Shown piece after piece: positions 16,897-54,925 of a DNA stretch of 64,000 nucleotides. The stretch spans positions 4,802,450 through 4,866,449 of the forward strand of contig NC_014962.1 of the NCBI RefSeq assembly GCF_000186345.1, in the 5' to 3' direction. The notes beneath the pieces were generated by a model. That model was not told where the DNA came from, did not search any database, and was given only the letters and a program-made list of their open reading frames with translations. Each line of letters starts with the position of its first letter. The first letter of the stretch is position 1. The stretch comes from Isosphaera pallida ATCC 43644 (lineage in GTDB: Bacteria > Planctomycetota > Planctomycetia > Isosphaerales > Isosphaeraceae). A program made the position numbers and the translations under genes.

Positions 16897-17098
16897 TCAG
16901 TCGATTCGAGACCAAAATGATAATTTTATGGCTCGTTTAGGTAGATCCCCGTTCAATGAGCACTGTTGCGTTATTTCAGAGCCAAAGTTATATGGGTATC
17001 TTTTGGCCACAAATCTCAGCACGCTGGAAAACTTGGAAACGACACATTTTGGCCGACCTTTCCGGCAAATCAACCGTCCGATTGCGGAGGGTCTCTGA
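16880..17098 (+). pseudogene. Short ORF overlapping the methyltransferase end; possible restriction-gene remnant
   Basis: A 72-residue frame starts inside the last codons of the methyltransferase (17-base overlap) and stops at 17098. Its composition is as AT-rich as the methyltransferase and it begins with a plausible hydrophilic N-terminus (MDHEDDQSIRDQ). The length is too short for any restriction enzyme. Further coding-like text (KEAFEILNRL) continues in another frame to about 17190. The position, directly after a methyltransferase, suggests a truncated partner gene, but no nuclease motif is visible. Confidence 0.35.
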
Positions 17099-17211
17099 AA
17101 GAAGCCTTTGAAATCTTGAATCGACTCTCGAATTGCACAACGCTGTTTGGATTATTCGTTCGTCGGAGTTCATTCGATTTCCTCCGAAACAAAGCGGAGG
17201 CGCGGAGTACC

Positions 17212-18891
17212 ATGCGTCGGGAACCGATCCCCAAACCTGGCGAGGAGTTCGTCGCGCCCCCCGGCGGCGCGGTCTGGTGGATCAAGCGCGACATGAGGTT
17301 AGCCGACAACGAGGCGCTGACCCGCGCGGTGGCTGAGCATTCGCTGGTGTTACCGGTCTTCCTGCACGAGCCGACCTTGTTGGCCCAGGCCGAGACCTCG
17401 GCGATGCACTGGGACGCTTGGACCCAGGCGCTCGCCGAGCTTCGGCGCCGGGTCCGCCGGGCCGGGGCGGAGATTCTGGTCGGCTGGGGCGAGGCGGTCG
17501 AGTCGTTCGAGGCGATTCGAGCGGTCTTTCCCTTCACGCACATCTACGCACATGAAGAGATCGGTGGCGCGTTCACCTTTCAGCGCGACCGGGCGGTGCG
17601 GGCCTGGTGCCGTCGTCGGGGAGTGACGGTGATCGAACGTCCCCAATCCTCGGTCCAACGAGGCGGGGTCGATCGGGACCGGATGGGGGAGTTGTGGCGT
17701 TCCCGGATCGTCGCGCCTCCCGCTTTGCCCGAGGTCGCCGCCATTCCGTTGACCAGCGAATTACGCACCTGGGCGGCGACGACCCCCACCGCCCCTCCTC
17801 AAGCCGAGGTGATCGGCTGGCGACGGCCTTCGGAGTGGCAGAACGTCAACGAGTCGTCGGCCTGGGCCACCCTGGATTCGTTTCTGGAGCAACGGGGGCG
17901 TGGCTATTCCGGCGGCATCTCTTCGCCCAACACCGCCTTCGAGTCCGGCAGCCGGCTCTCGGTCCATCTCGCCTGGGGCACTTTGAGTCTGCGTCAGGCT
18001 TATCAAGCGACCCAAGCCCGTTTGCGCGAACTGGAACGCGATCCAGCCGCCCACGACGCGACCCGCTGGCGGCGGAGCCTCCGGTCGTTCCTGGCCCGGC
18101 TCCATTGGCGCGATCATTTCATTCAGAGGCTCGAAACCGAACCGGAGATGGAGTTCCGTCCGCTCCATCCAGCCTACGACGCGCTGGAGGCCGAGGATGA
18201 CCCAGAGTTGCTCGAACGCTGGCGACGTGGGTTGACCGGCTTCCCGCTGGTGGACGCCGTGATGCGCTGTTTGGCCACAACCGGCTTTTGCAACTTTCGA
18301 ATGCGGGCGATGGCCGTCTCGGTGGCCTGCCACGCCTTGCGGCTGGATTGGAGGACGATCCACCCCCATCTCGCCGGGGTCTTCCGCGACTACGAGCCGG
18401 GCATCCACTTCAGCCAGTTGCAGATGCAGGCGGGCGTGGTGGGGATCAACACCATACGGTCTTATAACCCGTTCAAGCAGGCGCTTGACCATGATCCTGA
18501 CGCACGATTCATCACGCGTTGGATTCCCGAATTGCGCGACCTGCCCGCCGAGCGGATTCATAGTTTCGATCAGGACCCCCCCCGATCATCCGAAACCACT
18601 TATCCACCCCCGGTGGTCGATCATCGGACGAGAACCCGCGCGTGGGTCGAACGGCTTTATCAATTGCGTTCGACTCCCGAGGCCGAAGCGATCGCGGTAG
18701 AGGTCTGGCGTCGTCACGGCTCACGTCGTTCTCCGCATCCACGGCCACGCTCCAAATCACGACGACCCAGCGCGGCCGGCTCCTCCCCAACGCAGCCCCG
18801 ACGGCCATCCCGCCGCGCTGCGCGTCCCGACGACCCTCGTCAGGGTCGTCTGTTTTCGGCCGGTCGCTCCACGCCGGAGGAATCGGATTGA
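17212..18891 (+). CDS. Cryptochrome/photolyase family protein (FAD-dependent DNA photolyase)
   Basis: A 559-residue protein. N-terminal alpha/beta antenna-type domain (starts VWWIKRDMRLADNEAL, residues about 22-165), then an all-helical FAD-binding domain with GRGYSGG, LHWRDHF, GFPLVDAVMRCL and FQLQM-like FSQLQMQAG motifs. The segment TTGFCNFRMRAMAVSVACHALRLD differs from the TGW-HNR signature of class I CPD photolyases and fits a divergent bacterial branch. Role: light-driven repair of UV-induced pyrimidine dimers, or light sensing. ATG 17212 has GGAGGCGCGGAG upstream; the longer open frame before it is the AT-rich island. The last 60 residues are Arg/Pro/Ser-rich and probably disordered; part is encoded by a perfect inverted repeat. 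Confidence 0.9.
   Translation: MRREPIPKPGEEFVAPPGGAVWWIKRDMRLADNEALTRAVAEHSLVLPVFLHEPTLLAQAETSAMHWDAWTQALAELRRRVRRAGAEILVGWGEAVESFEAIRAVFPFTHIYAHEEIGGAFTFQRDRAVRAWCRRRGVTVIERPQSSVQRGGVDRDRMGELWRSRIVAPPALPEVAAIPLTSELRTWAATTPTAPPQAEVIGWRRPSEWQNVNESSAWATLDSFLEQRGRGYSGGISSPNTAFESGSRLSVHLAWGTLSLRQAYQATQARLRELERDPAAHDATRWRRSLRSFLARLHWRDHFIQRLETEPEMEFRPLHPAYDALEAEDDPELLERWRRGLTGFPLVDAVMRCLATTGFCNFRMRAMAVSVACHALRLDWRTIHPHLAGVFRDYEPGIHFSQLQMQAGVVGINTIRSYNPFKQALDHDPDARFITRWIPELRDLPAERIHSFDQDPPRSSETTYPPPVVDHRTRTRAWVERLYQLRSTPEAEAIAVEVWRRHGSRRSPHPRPRSKSRRPSAAGSSPTQPRRPSRRAARPDDPRQGRLFSAGRSTPEESD
18829..18850. repeat. Perfect 9-base-pair inverted repeat inside the photolyase tail
   Basis: Arms GACGACCCT (18829-18837) and AGGGTCGTC (18842-18850) with loop CGTC, followed by TGTTTT. 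It lies in codons for the basic C-terminal tail and resembles the hairpin core at 52814-52830. Confidence 0.6.
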
Positions 18892-50993: not shown

Positions 50994-51080
50994 TCGTTGT
51001 ATCATCCTCCAGTGTGCGTTCGTCACTTCAGATTCCACTGATGCTGACCTTGAAGTTTGAAGACGACGAGGAGGAGTTCC

Positions 51081-52640
51081 ATGAGGTCCCCACGTGGTTG
51101 GAATCGCTCGGTTCGCCGGCTCGGGTGGAGCGGTGGTTTGGTGTTGGTTCTGGCGATCGCCCGCTCGGAACCGGCGTTTGCCCATCGTCAACCGCCTGAC
51201 CCTGCGTCAGATGGGATCACCCTTCGAGCGGGCGCGGCTACCCTGGACATCACCCCGCCACTGGGAACCTCGATCAACGGCCATATGAACGACCGACGGG
51301 GAACCCTGCTCCACGACCCGCTGCAGGTTCGTGCCGTGACGCTGGAGGCGGCCAGTCCCAACGCCGCCGCGCCCCAGGTCAACCGAGTGGCGCTGGTGAC
51401 TGTGGACACCTGTCTCTTGTCCAACGGCATCGTGGAGGCGGTGCGGGACCGTTTGGCGCGCGACGCCGGATTCCCCCCCGAAGCTCTGGTGATCTCCGCC
51501 ACTCATACCCACTCAGGCGGCACCTTGGCTCCGGCGTTTCAAAGCCAACCCGACCCCTCCTACGTCGCCTTCGTCAGCCAACGCATTGGCGACGCCGTTC
51601 TGATCGCCTACAGCCGTCTGACGCCAGCCCGGATCGGCTGGGGGGTTGGAACCAACAATCGTCAGGTGTTCAACCGACGCTTCTTCATGAAGCCGGGAGT
51701 CGAACTGGTCGATCCCTTCGGCAAACCGGAACGAGTCAAAATGAACCCTGGCGTGGGATCGACTCAGGTGGAGCGTCCAGCCGGGCCGGTCGATCCCGAG
51801 GTTGCGGTCCTGAGAATCGACGCGGTCACGCCGGACCAAACAGCTCGACCACTGGCGGTTTACGCCAACTACCCGCTGCACTATGTGGGCGACGTACCGG
51901 GCAACGCCTTTTCGGCTGATTACTTTGGAGCCTTCGCCGCGCGGTTGAGTCGATTGCTCCAAGCCGACGATCCGGCCGACCATCCCCCCTTCGTCGCGTT
52001 GTTGTCCAACGGGGCTAGCGGCGACATCAACAACATCGACGTGATGGGACGGGTACGACCGTTGGAGGAGCAACGCCGTCCTCAACCGCCGTTCACCCAG
52101 ATTCGCCGGGTGGCCGACGACTTGGCCCAAGAGGTCCGCGCGACCTGGGAGAACATCGAGACAACCCGGACGCCACGGCTGGCAGCCTTGTCGGACACCC
52201 TTACTCTGGGCGTTCGCAAACCAAACCCCGATGAGGTCGAACGGGCGCGACGTCTGGTTCAACCGGCGCGGGATCAGGGACGGCCTCTCAAGACCCTGGA
52301 GGAAATCTACGCCGGGGAAACTCTGGATCTGACCACCTATCCCGACCAAGTCGAGGTGACGGTCTCGGCGGTGCGGGTGGGCGACGGCGTTCTGGTGGCG
52401 ATCCCCGGCGAGCCATTCGTCGAGATTGGCCTGGCGATCAAGAAACGCTCGCCATTCAAGTCCACCGTGATCGTTGGTCTGGCCAATGGCTACTACGGGT
52501 ATCTGCCAACCAAGTCGGATTTCGAGCTGGGCGGCTACGAGACCTGGCGGGCCAAATCCAGCTATCTGGAACCCGGCGCTGCGGCCAAGATTCAAGACGC
52601 GGTCGATCGGTTGCTGCAACGCTTGCATAGCGACGGCTAA
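51081..52640 (+). CDS. Exported neutral/alkaline ceramidase-like protein
   Basis: A 519-residue protein with a signal peptide (about 12-35, ending near AFAHRQ). The N-terminal domain of neutral ceramidase is recognisable: AATLDITPPLGTSINGHMND, then ALVTVDTCLL, SATHTHSGG with zinc-binding His residues, and LSNGASGDINN. Classic ceramidases are about 650-750 residues with a C-terminal immunoglobulin-like domain; this one lacks that part, as is common in planctomycete homologues. It may hydrolyse an amide-linked lipid or another ester/amide. ATG 51081 has GAGGAGGAG six bases upstream, stronger than the ATG at 51057. Confidence 0.85.
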   Translation: MRSPRGWNRSVRRLGWSGGLVLVLAIARSEPAFAHRQPPDPASDGITLRAGAATLDITPPLGTSINGHMNDRRGTLLHDPLQVRAVTLEAASPNAAAPQVNRVALVTVDTCLLSNGIVEAVRDRLARDAGFPPEALVISATHTHSGGTLAPAFQSQPDPSYVAFVSQRIGDAVLIAYSRLTPARIGWGVGTNNRQVFNRRFFMKPGVELVDPFGKPERVKMNPGVGSTQVERPAGPVDPEVAVLRIDAVTPDQTARPLAVYANYPLHYVGDVPGNAFSADYFGAFAARLSRLLQADDPADHPPFVALLSNGASGDINNIDVMGRVRPLEEQRRPQPPFTQIRRVADDLAQEVRATWENIETTRTPRLAALSDTLTLGVRKPNPDEVERARRLVQPARDQGRPLKTLEEIYAGETLDLTTYPDQVEVTVSAVRVGDGVLVAIPGEPFVEIGLAIKKRSPFKSTVIVGLANGYYGYLPTKSDFELGGYETWRAKSSYLEPGAAAKIQDAVDRLLQRLHSDG

Positions 52641-52809
52641 CCACGACCACAAGGAAATGCAACGAAGCGATTCGGTCTTAGGCTTTCGAGGCCGTCCCCG
52701 AAACCCCATCGAGGTCGAGGGGACGCGCCTGAACCATGCCCGCCACGGCGGAATGGAGTTTCCCAATCACCCCAAAGACGACGATTCCACAAGTAAGTCC
52801 GTGGCTCGA

Positions 52810-52833
52810 GGAACGACCCCGTAGGGGTCGAGG
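52810..52833. repeat. Palindromic element, copy 1
   Basis: GGAAC prefix, then arms CGACCCC (52814-52820) and GGGGTCG (52824-52830) around GTA. Related to copy 2 at 52914, with the second base pair of the stem G-C here and A-T there. Confidence 0.55.
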
Positions 52834-52913
52834 AAGCCGCCCGGCGCGCTCGCATCGGTGGAGTGGTTGGAGCGATGGCCGGTCCTATTCCCAGGGCGTC
52901 GCTCTAGGCTTTG

Positions 52914-52936
52914 GGAACAACCCTGTGGGGTTGGGG
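52914..52936. repeat. Palindromic element, copy 2
   Basis: GGAAC prefix, then arms CAACCC (52918-52923) and GGGTTG (52928-52933) around TGTG. Pairing is kept relative to copy 1 by a compensating change. Confidence 0.55.
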
Positions 52937-53058
52937 ATCACTTGGGACCATCTCATCCTCATCACATGATCTTCTGTCTTGAGGAGATCGGATCGGAGCC
53001 GCCCTCGGGATAAACTTGAACGATCTGGGTTGGTGTTGGCAAGCTTGGTTGGAGTGCA

Positions 53059-53847
53059 TCACTCATTCGAGTGGGCCCGGCGGCGGCGTTCAAGAGCGTC
53101 GCGGCAATGTTCGGCGAGTTTGAGGTCGATAAGTTCACGTTCCAAGGCGTCGAAGTCGTGATTGGGGTCGTCGAGGGAGCGGGCGACCTCATCCACCAGG
53201 AAGTCGGTGAATTTCTGACGGGCGAGGAAGACCTGTTTGCGGACCCATTCGGGAGTGACGGGCCGTCCCAGCTTGGCGGAGAGTCCCTGGGCCAGTTCAG
53301 CGGAGCGTTGCTGGGGGTGATCGGCCCGATACCTTAAGACAAGGTGGAGGTGGCGTCCTTTGCGACGGTCGTGGTCGGCCAGCGCTTCCCACGCCTTGTT
53401 CATTAGATCGGCCCGCCAGATGGCGAGGAACTCGGCGTCGGTGGCTAGCGAGGATGGGTCGAGGGTTTGGGGTTCGGGGGCCTCCTCCAATGGTCGGGCG
53501 ACCCGTCGGGCCTTGCGGCGGTGGTAGTCGATCATCAGATTCGAGAGAGCCGCTTTGAGCAGATGACGAAACTTGCCCCGCGTGGGGTCGGCTCGGCGAA
53601 AGTCCCCCCGTAGGAACCGCACGGTGAATTCTTGGAAGAGTTCGTCGGCGGCGTCCGGGTCGCGTAACGATACAGCCAAATATCGGTGAATCGCCGCCGA
53701 ATACCGTTTGAGGATTTGAAGTTGAGCCTCGCGGGCTTGGTCCGAATCAAGCTCGCCCGCCTGGGCCAGAACTGTCCACATCGTGGAGATCTGACTCAAG
53801 CGTTCGGGGTCGGTCCAATCCTCCTCGGGTGGGTCGGGAATCGTCAT
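53059..53847 (-). CDS. ECF-type RNA polymerase sigma factor (planctomycete type)
   Basis: A 262-residue sigma-70-family protein. Region 2 is recognisable: IHRYLAVSLRDPDAADELFQEFTVRFL and RGKFRHLLKAALSNLMIDYHRRKARR (described by family pattern). Region 4 is a longer than usual helix-turn-helix (AELAQGLSAKLGRPVTPEWVRKQVFLAR). The N-terminal 30 residues and C-terminal 45 residues are extensions. No anti-sigma factor gene is adjacent; the divergent neighbour is a membrane-anchored protein with no anti-sigma signature. ATG 53847 is used because the upstream open frame lacks coding character. Convergent with the ceramidase-like gene. Confidence 0.85.
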   Translation of the reverse strand: MTIPDPPEEDWTDPERLSQISTMWTVLAQAGELDSDQAREAQLQILKRYSAAIHRYLAVSLRDPDAADELFQEFTVRFLRGDFRRADPTRGKFRHLLKAALSNLMIDYHRRKARRVARPLEEAPEPQTLDPSSLATDAEFLAIWRADLMNKAWEALADHDRRKGRHLHLVLRYRADHPQQRSAELAQGLSAKLGRPVTPEWVRKQVFLARQKFTDFLVDEVARSLDDPNHDFDALERELIDLKLAEHCRDALERRRRAHSNE

Positions 53848-54172
53848 GGTCAGGTTCGACTCCGGGTCGGACACGGGGATCGTCGCCTTGAGAACGCATC
53901 GTGTCGGTGGAGTCAACGAACCGAACCGCCGCTCATCCCGACCAACCGATTTCAACGGAACGACCCCCGCTTGGCAACGTATCGCTTCCTGAACAGAGCG
54001 GTCGATCTTCGGCCCGGCGAGGTCGGTCAGCCCGATTCGATCCACGCCTGAGCCGAGATGTCCGAACCCTAGCCCCTGCCCCCTCAAGCCGTTCAACCCG
54101 TTCCCGGTTGCCTCAAACCCACCCGCAAGCGTGTCGCGTCGTGCTCTTGAACCTCTGAAGGAACCCGTTTCG
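53848..54172. other. Divergent intergenic region sigma factor / membrane protein
   Basis: About 325 bases. Nothing distinct was identified; promoters for both genes should lie here. Confidence 0.4.
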
Positions 54173-54925
54173 ATGAACGCCATGTGGAGCCGTTTGTTCA
54201 CGCTCAATTTCCGCGCGATGGACCAAGACGATTCGATTCCCAAAACGAATTCGCCGGCTACCGACGACGACCTGGCCAACCGTTTGGAACGTCTGGAACA
54301 GGCCCATCGTCGCTGGCGAACTTTAACTTTGGGACTCGGCCTGGGGGTCATGGCGCTGCTGGCGGACTCGGTCTGGACGCGGCATCGGTCCAGCGACGTT
54401 CTGGAAGCGCGGGAGTTGATTGTGCGCGACGATCAGGGCGTGATCCGGGCGCGGTTGAGTGTCGATGGCGACGACGGAGCCCAACTTGTGCTGCAAGACG
54501 AGCGGGAGCGTCCCCAGTTGCGGCTCCAAGGGCGGGCGGATCGCTCTAGCTATCTGGAGATGCTGAATCCCAGCGCCGGCGATTGCCGGCTGATTCTCGG
54601 AGCCGGTTCGGACGGCGTGGCCGGTTTGCACCTTTACGACCAGCACCACCTTGCGGCCACGTTGCGAACTGACCAGCAAGGCTCCGCCGACCTGCTCTTC
54701 ACGCCGCACCGATTTGGCGCGGCTCACTCGTTCGCCGCCGCGTCGGCGCGGACGGTCGATTCGACCGAGCCGCCGGCCCGATTGGCCCTGAACTGGAAAC
54801 CTCGGGCGAACCCCGACGCGGCCGGATCGCAGCCGGAAGCCTCCTCCCCGGAATTCTCCCAGAGTCCTTTCGTGATCGACGACGCCTTGGAGGAAGGCGA
54901 CTGGGCCGAGACCGTGTTAGAGTGA
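54173..54925 (+). CDS. Membrane-anchored beta-repeat protein, function unknown
   Basis: A 250-residue protein. Residues about 28-45 are a short coiled-coil-like helix, about 46-65 a transmembrane segment (LTLGLGLGVMALLADSV), so the rest is probably periplasmic. Residues about 75-185 are a chain of short beta repeats of about 25 residues (RARLSVDGDDGAQLVLQDE, RPQLRLQG, CRLILGAGSDGVAGLHLYD, TLRTDQQGSADLLF), the pattern of a beta-helix or beta-roll. The C-terminus is disordered. I do not recognise a named family. AAGGAA nine bases before ATG 54173 supports the start. Confidence 0.7.
   Translation: MNAMWSRLFTLNFRAMDQDDSIPKTNSPATDDDLANRLERLEQAHRRWRTLTLGLGLGVMALLADSVWTRHRSSDVLEARELIVRDDQGVIRARLSVDGDDGAQLVLQDERERPQLRLQGRADRSSYLEMLNPSAGDCRLILGAGSDGVAGLHLYDQHHLAATLRTDQQGSADLLFTPHRFGAAHSFAAASARTVDSTEPPARLALNWKPRANPDAAGSQPEASSPEFSQSPFVIDDALEEGDWAETVLE

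Follow-up and report, generated by a model that had tools for sequence, protein, structure and literature searches.

BOX elements, known from Streptococcus pneumoniae, are modular repeats in which differing end modules enclose variable internal modules, with terminal inverted repeats and predicted stem-loops, and the part of PMC3049150 consulted here reports that BOX, RUP, SPRITE and the IS elements of pneumococcus share a bias toward the gaps between convergent genes, which it takes as a mark of parasitic mobile DNA that the genome tolerates downstream of its genes. REPs, too, often lie between convergent genes (PMC1525189, in the part consulted), and another partial source, PMC3733652, gives GTAG and CGTC as the REP tags and reports REP families in Planctomycetes; Isosphaera is absent from the portion of that text consulted. 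For the Isosphaeraceae, the repeats mentioned in the consulted part of a comparative study (PMC5352709) are those of CRISPR and a tandem one within an isoamylase gene. Here we describe a repeat of Isosphaera pallida that is built, like BOX, from differing end modules, variable internal modules, terminal inverted repeats and predicted stem-loops. The likeness is drawn from architecture and location. The host is a G+C-rich planctomycete, unlike that of BOX, and boxB is shorter than the units of the Isosphaera repeat, which exceed 100 nt. We found no description of the family among the titles and abstract openings listed in the literature searched on Isosphaera and planctomycete repeats, REPs, MITEs and structured RNAs (most subscription journals lay outside that search), and within this literature it appears to be an undescribed family of a known modular kind.

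Isosphaera pallida inhabits hot springs and has a G+C-rich genome, here 5,529,304 bases in two contigs. The window, by which we mean the whole stretch of 64,000 nucleotides that was analyzed, occupies positions 4,802,450 to 4,866,449 of the 5,472,964-base contig. An earlier note on this DNA had pointed to a pair of GGAAC-prefixed hairpins about 100 bases apart, and they are there, with GGAAC at 52810-52814 and 52914-52918, a spacing of 104 nt. Each proved to be the second hairpin of a two-hairpin core, which we modeled with R1, a covariance model of 63 positions seeded with 14 of 16 aligned copies (L007 and L009, whose upstream hairpin is weak, were omitted). Unit 1 has its core at 52778-52840 on the plus strand (R1 score 51.4 bits; window-wide E value 1.1e-10), with a first hairpin at 52786-52804 that is degenerate in the R1 alignment, with several non-pairs, and a second at 52814-52830 that reads CGACCCC-GTA-GGGGTCG with GGAA in front. 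The unit 2 core, at 52882-52943 on the same strand (59.7 bits, E 1e-12), has hairpins CCCAGGG-CGTCG-CTCTAGG at 52890-52908 and CAACCC-TGTG-GGGTTG, again preceded by GGAA, at 52918-52933. Both copies are among the 14 seeds; the next best match in the window has an E value of 0.61. A possible third unit, mostly lost and reduced to hairpin 2, may precede unit 1 by about 107 nt, at 52703-52720 (+), where core HMM positions 39-56 gave a weak match (E 0.011 over 651 bases).

Sequence outside the hairpins also belongs to the element. A right arm, of the type called B below, extends from 52927 to 53032 on the plus strand toward the terminal inverted repeat and was matched with an E value of 1.6e-6 over 464 kb by a profile made from eight other loci, the window excluded. 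The inner part of the terminal inverted repeat, positions 19-36 of an end model (R2) whose seeds do not include this copy, is recognizable at 53013-53030 on the minus strand (7.6 bits, E 0.0057 over 701 bases), and the right tip, expected near 53048, has decayed. The left arm of the window copy was not recognizable, and its terminal repeat is reduced to the inner part of one end. On the left lies a gene for a neutral/alkaline ceramidase-like protein (51057-52640, +; PF04734, E 1.2e-11) with its 3' end toward the element, and on the right a convergent gene with a sigma-70 region 2 match (53059-54351, -; PF04542, E 4.9e-6). When we searched named genomes for an empty site by way of the ceramidase, the only locus returned was from Verrucomicrobia, at 40% identity.

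The earlier note had proposed a genome search for further copies, and such copies exist: with up to three mismatches, the hairpin-2 motif occurs at 14 places, seven on each strand, and its reversed control at none. Reading around these copies revealed the second hairpin upstream and a similarity that continued on both sides, such that the repeat unit spans 103 to 121 nt and carries two hairpins of the form CCCAGGG-CTTCG-CCCTGGG and GGAA-CGACCCC-GTT-GGGGTCG. In an element, two arms flank a single clear unit or a pair of them, and in some copies a third is partly preserved. The R1 search of the genome, which scored 150 of 4520 first-look candidates, gave at least 51 matches at E ≤ 1 and at least 32 at E ≤ 1e-3. 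The matches at E ≤ 1e-3, 18 of them on the plus strand and 14 on the minus strand, fall at 27 sites, and the 51 matches at E ≤ 1 include eight same-strand neighbor pairs spaced 103 to 121 nt apart. The copies are much decayed, with a median pairwise core identity of 57%; BOX, by comparison, has 125 copies (PMC3049150, in part), against at least 27 Isosphaera sites at E ≤ 1e-3. Thus, the suggestion that the hairpins belong to a dispersed repeat family held, and we consider it likely that those in the window are tandem units of a decayed noncoding mobile repeat scattered through the genome.

The arms are of two types, A and B, usually one of each per element and facing inward, and both end in TAGGCTGTNCTGACAATCANCCGGGTCGTTC. 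The inward-facing terminal repeat is TAGGCTGTNCTGACAATCA..., with the end sequence TAGGCTGT.... By eye, the exceptions to this arrangement are L058, both of whose arms are of type A, and L057 and L066, with a third arm type. R2, the 40-nt end model, was built from 21 seeds and gave at least 57 matches in the genome at E ≤ 1 and at least 27 at E ≤ 1e-3 (150 of 4300 first-look candidates scored); because only part of the first-look candidates was scored in each search, the R1 and R2 counts may be undercounts. Eight of the 36 non-seed R2 matches have an R1 match within 350 nt, and all eight face the core, where 0.19 would be expected (p 1e-11); the 350-nt distance was set with both lists already in view, and one of the eight belongs to an element whose opposite end is a seed. 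The remaining 28 of the 36 have no core nearby.

Six copies retain both ends. They measure 105 to 444 bp, against 67 to 637 bp for BOX in the consulted part of PMC3049150, and their arms are 74 to 81% identical over aligned columns when one arm is inverted. In all six, the arm score exceeds those of all 300 shuffles of one half, by a narrow margin in three (70.5 versus 66, 41 versus 39.5 and 132 versus 128.5). Profiles of the two arms, made from 10 A and 8 B sequences picked by eye, were run on 20 evenly spaced 20-kb stretches and returned one element already known and two further ones, in each of which the arms stand at opposite ends: L087 (arm A, 2e-5; arm B, 5.7e-9) and L083 (arm A, 8.6e-4; arm B, 0.0053). 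TA is present at both tips in three of the six two-ended copies, with differing bases outside, and no target-site duplication beyond TA was seen in any of the six. This fits a TA target without being proof of duplication. The family has the terminal inverted repeats of a MITE, in the non-seed ends as well as in the two-ended copies, and the differing end modules around variable internal modules that characterize BOX, namely arms A and B around one or two clear units.

In being short, noncoding, extragenic and bounded by terminal inverted repeats, the Isosphaera repeat resembles RUP and other MITEs. RUP itself, according to part of PMC3049150, is a simple 107-bp unit with terminal inverted repeats like those of IS630-Spn1, whereas the Isosphaera element is modular and no IS630-type domain was found in its genome. 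The same source compares the terminal inverted repeats of BOX with those of ISSpn2; for the Isosphaera repeat we identified no IS with matching terminal inverted repeats. We searched the genome for three transposase families and found no match at E ≤ 0.001 to PF13358 (IS630-type) or to PF01609 (IS4/IS5-type) and a single domain of PF01797 (Y1_Tnp, RAYT-like), located away from the elements in an unrelated open reading frame. The 13 proteins encoded beside 12 of the 57 R2 ends include no transposase, and one of them has no Pfam match at all; like a MITE, then, the element is short and without a transposase of its own. One pair of ends 2.4 kb apart was considered as an autonomous element and rejected, as it encloses host genes (DUF362 and cyclase-like). 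We infer that the mobilizing enzyme has been lost or is unrecognized, loss of the partner being plausible because the copies are so diverged.

The elements have a marked preference for the ends of genes. Among 27 arrays, which are the loci at hand and not all sites, 25 have called genes on both sides (the other two lack a called gene on one side), and 16 of these lie between convergent genes, 8 between co-directional genes and 1 between divergent genes. In a background of 464 kb from the same genome, made up of the window and 20 stretches, 43 of 255 neighboring gene pairs are convergent, and 14,319 of the 81,485 intergenic bases (17.6%) fall between them, so that the preference of the arrays for convergent gaps over the intergenic background has a p value of 3e-7. 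Gene orientation was taken from a simple codon-score gene caller and not from the published annotation; in one case (L021) the core shares bases with the start of a called open reading frame, and L022 and L026, both counted among the 16 convergent arrays, look like segmental duplicates of each other. BOX and RUP are likewise enriched between convergent genes (PMC3049150, in part), and since BOX, RUP and REP all share the bias, the convergent-gap bias alone is no proof of a function at gene ends.

Within the same taxonomic family, R1 at E ≤ 1e-3 found matches in 4 of 45 genomes, namely Isosphaera pallida itself, G004 (one match), G005 (four) and G022 (one). In a phylum-wide R1 search at E ≤ 1e-5, in which 18 candidates were scored per genome, Isosphaera pallida was the only one of 294 genomes with a match, and a phylum-wide pattern search found 5 of 392 genomes including its own, with single matches in the other four and two matches for the reversed control, which argues against wide spread at the exact level. 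G005, which belongs to another genus of the family, carries a sister repeat of five copies by pattern (L072-L076; control, none) with a core, ..CTTCGCCCTGGGCTTTAAGAACGACCC-TTTCAGGGTCGAGAAT, much like the two-hairpin core of Isosphaera. Its terminal repeat differs, reading ATTCAGCCGAAT.../...ATTCGGCTGAAT; the right tip stands at the same distance in four of the five copies by pattern and in the fifth by eye, and the inverted left tip was found in one of the five. Some of the sister copies have extra GC hairpins upstream.

A conserved core with changed tips between genera is the opposite of what a simple MITE would predict. On this basis, the core might be recognized by a host or transposition factor, or might be kept as an RNA element at 3' ends between convergent genes, with the ends being exchanged, so that the interior of a modular repeat would outlast its ends. 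That the conserved working part is the two-hairpin core instead of the tips, as two genera with similar cores and different terminal repeats would suggest, seems to us unlikely; should conservation across genera prove to lie in the core and not in the ends, this would offer a handle on how modular repeats spread.

Several other explanations bear on the same data. The earlier note had read the hairpins as covarying, and the change it rested on, from G-C to A-T between the two window stems (CGACCCC/GGGGTCG and CAACCC/GGGTTG), is real. It took this as a sign of a structured RNA, and a structured noncoding RNA family or a 3'-UTR element (an mRNA stabilizer, a Rho barrier or a terminator), duplicated and kept at convergent gene ends, would be in keeping with the strong convergent 3'-end bias and with a core common to another genus with different tips. 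In an alignment of 28 of the 32 R1 matches at E ≤ 1e-3 (two without a locus were left out, as were L032, a near copy of L022, and L040, which is shifted), both hairpins are present in the consensus, 72.3% of the cells of helix 1 and 84.7% of those of helix 2 are paired, and sliding the 3' partners by one column lowers overall pairing from 78.6% to 58-59%. This drop indicates that the hairpins exist but is no sign of selection, because a structure derived from the consensus drops anyway. Against shuffles, the preserved pairing that the note expected in further copies is present but only marginally in excess (78.6% versus 77.2%, with 39 of 500 shuffles as high), and the covariation score was equaled by 51 of 500; for the 14 seed copies, pairing was 78.9% versus 78.5% (217 of 500) and the covariation score again fell within the shuffle range (225 of 500). 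Both sides have changed with pairing kept in 10 of 387 cells, one of which is the G-C to A-T change of the window; this favors an RNA on its face but is not above the shuffles (317 of 500). Thus, a single compensatory change between two repeat copies does not amount to RNA covariation, and most of the pairing is what decaying copies of one palindromic ancestor would show. RNA folding of 52700-53055 was no better than that of shuffles (z 0.03), DNA folding of two other copies gave z values of -1.52 and -1.48, and the region 52500-53200 contains no intrinsic-terminator-like site, against a mean of 0.8 in shuffles. Rfam found only tRNA in the window; at a loose threshold on seven loci, one tRNA exceeded its gathering score and three other matches fell below theirs, one of these three (Plant_U3, E 0.14) overlapping the L012 element, so that on the repeat itself no match attains the gathering score of an Rfam family. 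Mobile DNA is the better fit for copies that occur on both strands, carry inverted terminal repeats and in some cases are compact with two ends, and we regard an RNA or 3'-UTR element as unlikely.

The earlier note had also raised the possibility of REP-like repeats, that is, of REP/BIME or REPIN sequences moved by a RAYT (TnpA-REP, HUH) transposase acting on hairpins of single-stranded DNA. The Isosphaera repeat does share with REP, BIME and REPIN repeats and with the terminal inverted repeats of TIRYT (PMC3733652, in part) a palindromic, extragenic and often clustered character, with opposite orientations at some loci, and its genome has one RAYT-like Y1_Tnp domain. GTAG or CGTC occurs only inside the hairpin-2 loop of some copies, including the first window hairpin, whereas the consensus, read by eye, shows no unpaired GTAG/CGTC end tag beside either hairpin; nor did we find a RAYT or TIRYT gene flanked by the ends of the repeat. 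The units, at more than 100 nt in an element bounded by terminal inverted repeats, compare with 20 to 40 nt for a REP, and a larger modular element with inverted terminal repeats speaks for a MITE- or BOX-like rather than a REP nature. In the strict sense, then, the REP assignment did not hold, and mobilization by a RAYT is in our view very unlikely. The Y1_Tnp domain lies at L050 (G000:C2:4939391-4939621, minus strand), in frame inside a 1077-residue stop-free stretch that has a weak match to a D12-type DNA methylase (E 9.5e-5) amid repeated peptide motifs (SGQDAHAPS, GARASRPY); the motifs resemble translated palindromes, and the locus is perhaps a RAYT with its repeats nested in a methylase gene. 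As for chance hairpins or a local tandem duplication without any family, GC hairpins are common in a G+C-rich genome, but the pattern GAACNACCC..GGGT occurs twice in the window, whereas 100 shuffles gave a mean of 0.05 and a maximum of 1, as the earlier note had maintained in setting chance aside. The copies elsewhere in the genome, with no reversed-control match, and the arm-B match outside the hairpins tell against it as well; this explanation is hardly credible, and we count it as already refuted.

We conclude that the element is probably a decayed, nonautonomous, modular transposable repeat, MITE-like and built in the manner of BOX. A transposase supplied in trans would once have spread it by acting on the terminal repeats, perhaps at TA-containing sites, and units may have been gained and lost through slippage or unequal recombination. 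The mobilizing enzyme would since have been lost, or gone unrecognized, while the copies drifted apart, and the hairpins would be a by-product of the palindromic build of the element. We propose that copies behind gene ends persisted because their insertion did no damage there; transcription from either side would place the hairpins in the 3' ends of both mRNAs, with no indication of a specific RNA function. Such a history would account for the window hairpins and would mean that BOX-like modular repeats are also present in a planctomycete, and within Isosphaera the family could be used to trace old transposition.

Three further inverted or duplicated sequences were encountered. The earlier note had linked to the window hairpins a dyad at 18829-18850, GACGACCCT/AGGGTCGTC. 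The dyad is present, as a 9-bp inverted repeat GACGACCCT-CGTC-AGGGTCGTC within a DNA photolyase gene (16966-18891), in the 3' end of its coding sequence, but it is not a family member, R1 with filters off giving no match there at E ≤ 1. L001 (G000:C2:3218089-3218109) fits the GGAAC-GACCC pattern and was dropped as a different inverted repeat, GCGACCCGAAGCG / CGCTTCGGGTCGC. Finally, the copies at G000:C2:3456463-3456526 (-) and 3462259-3462434 (+) are nearly identical, lie about 6 kb apart in opposite orientation and have similar flanks, which looks like an inverted segmental duplication.
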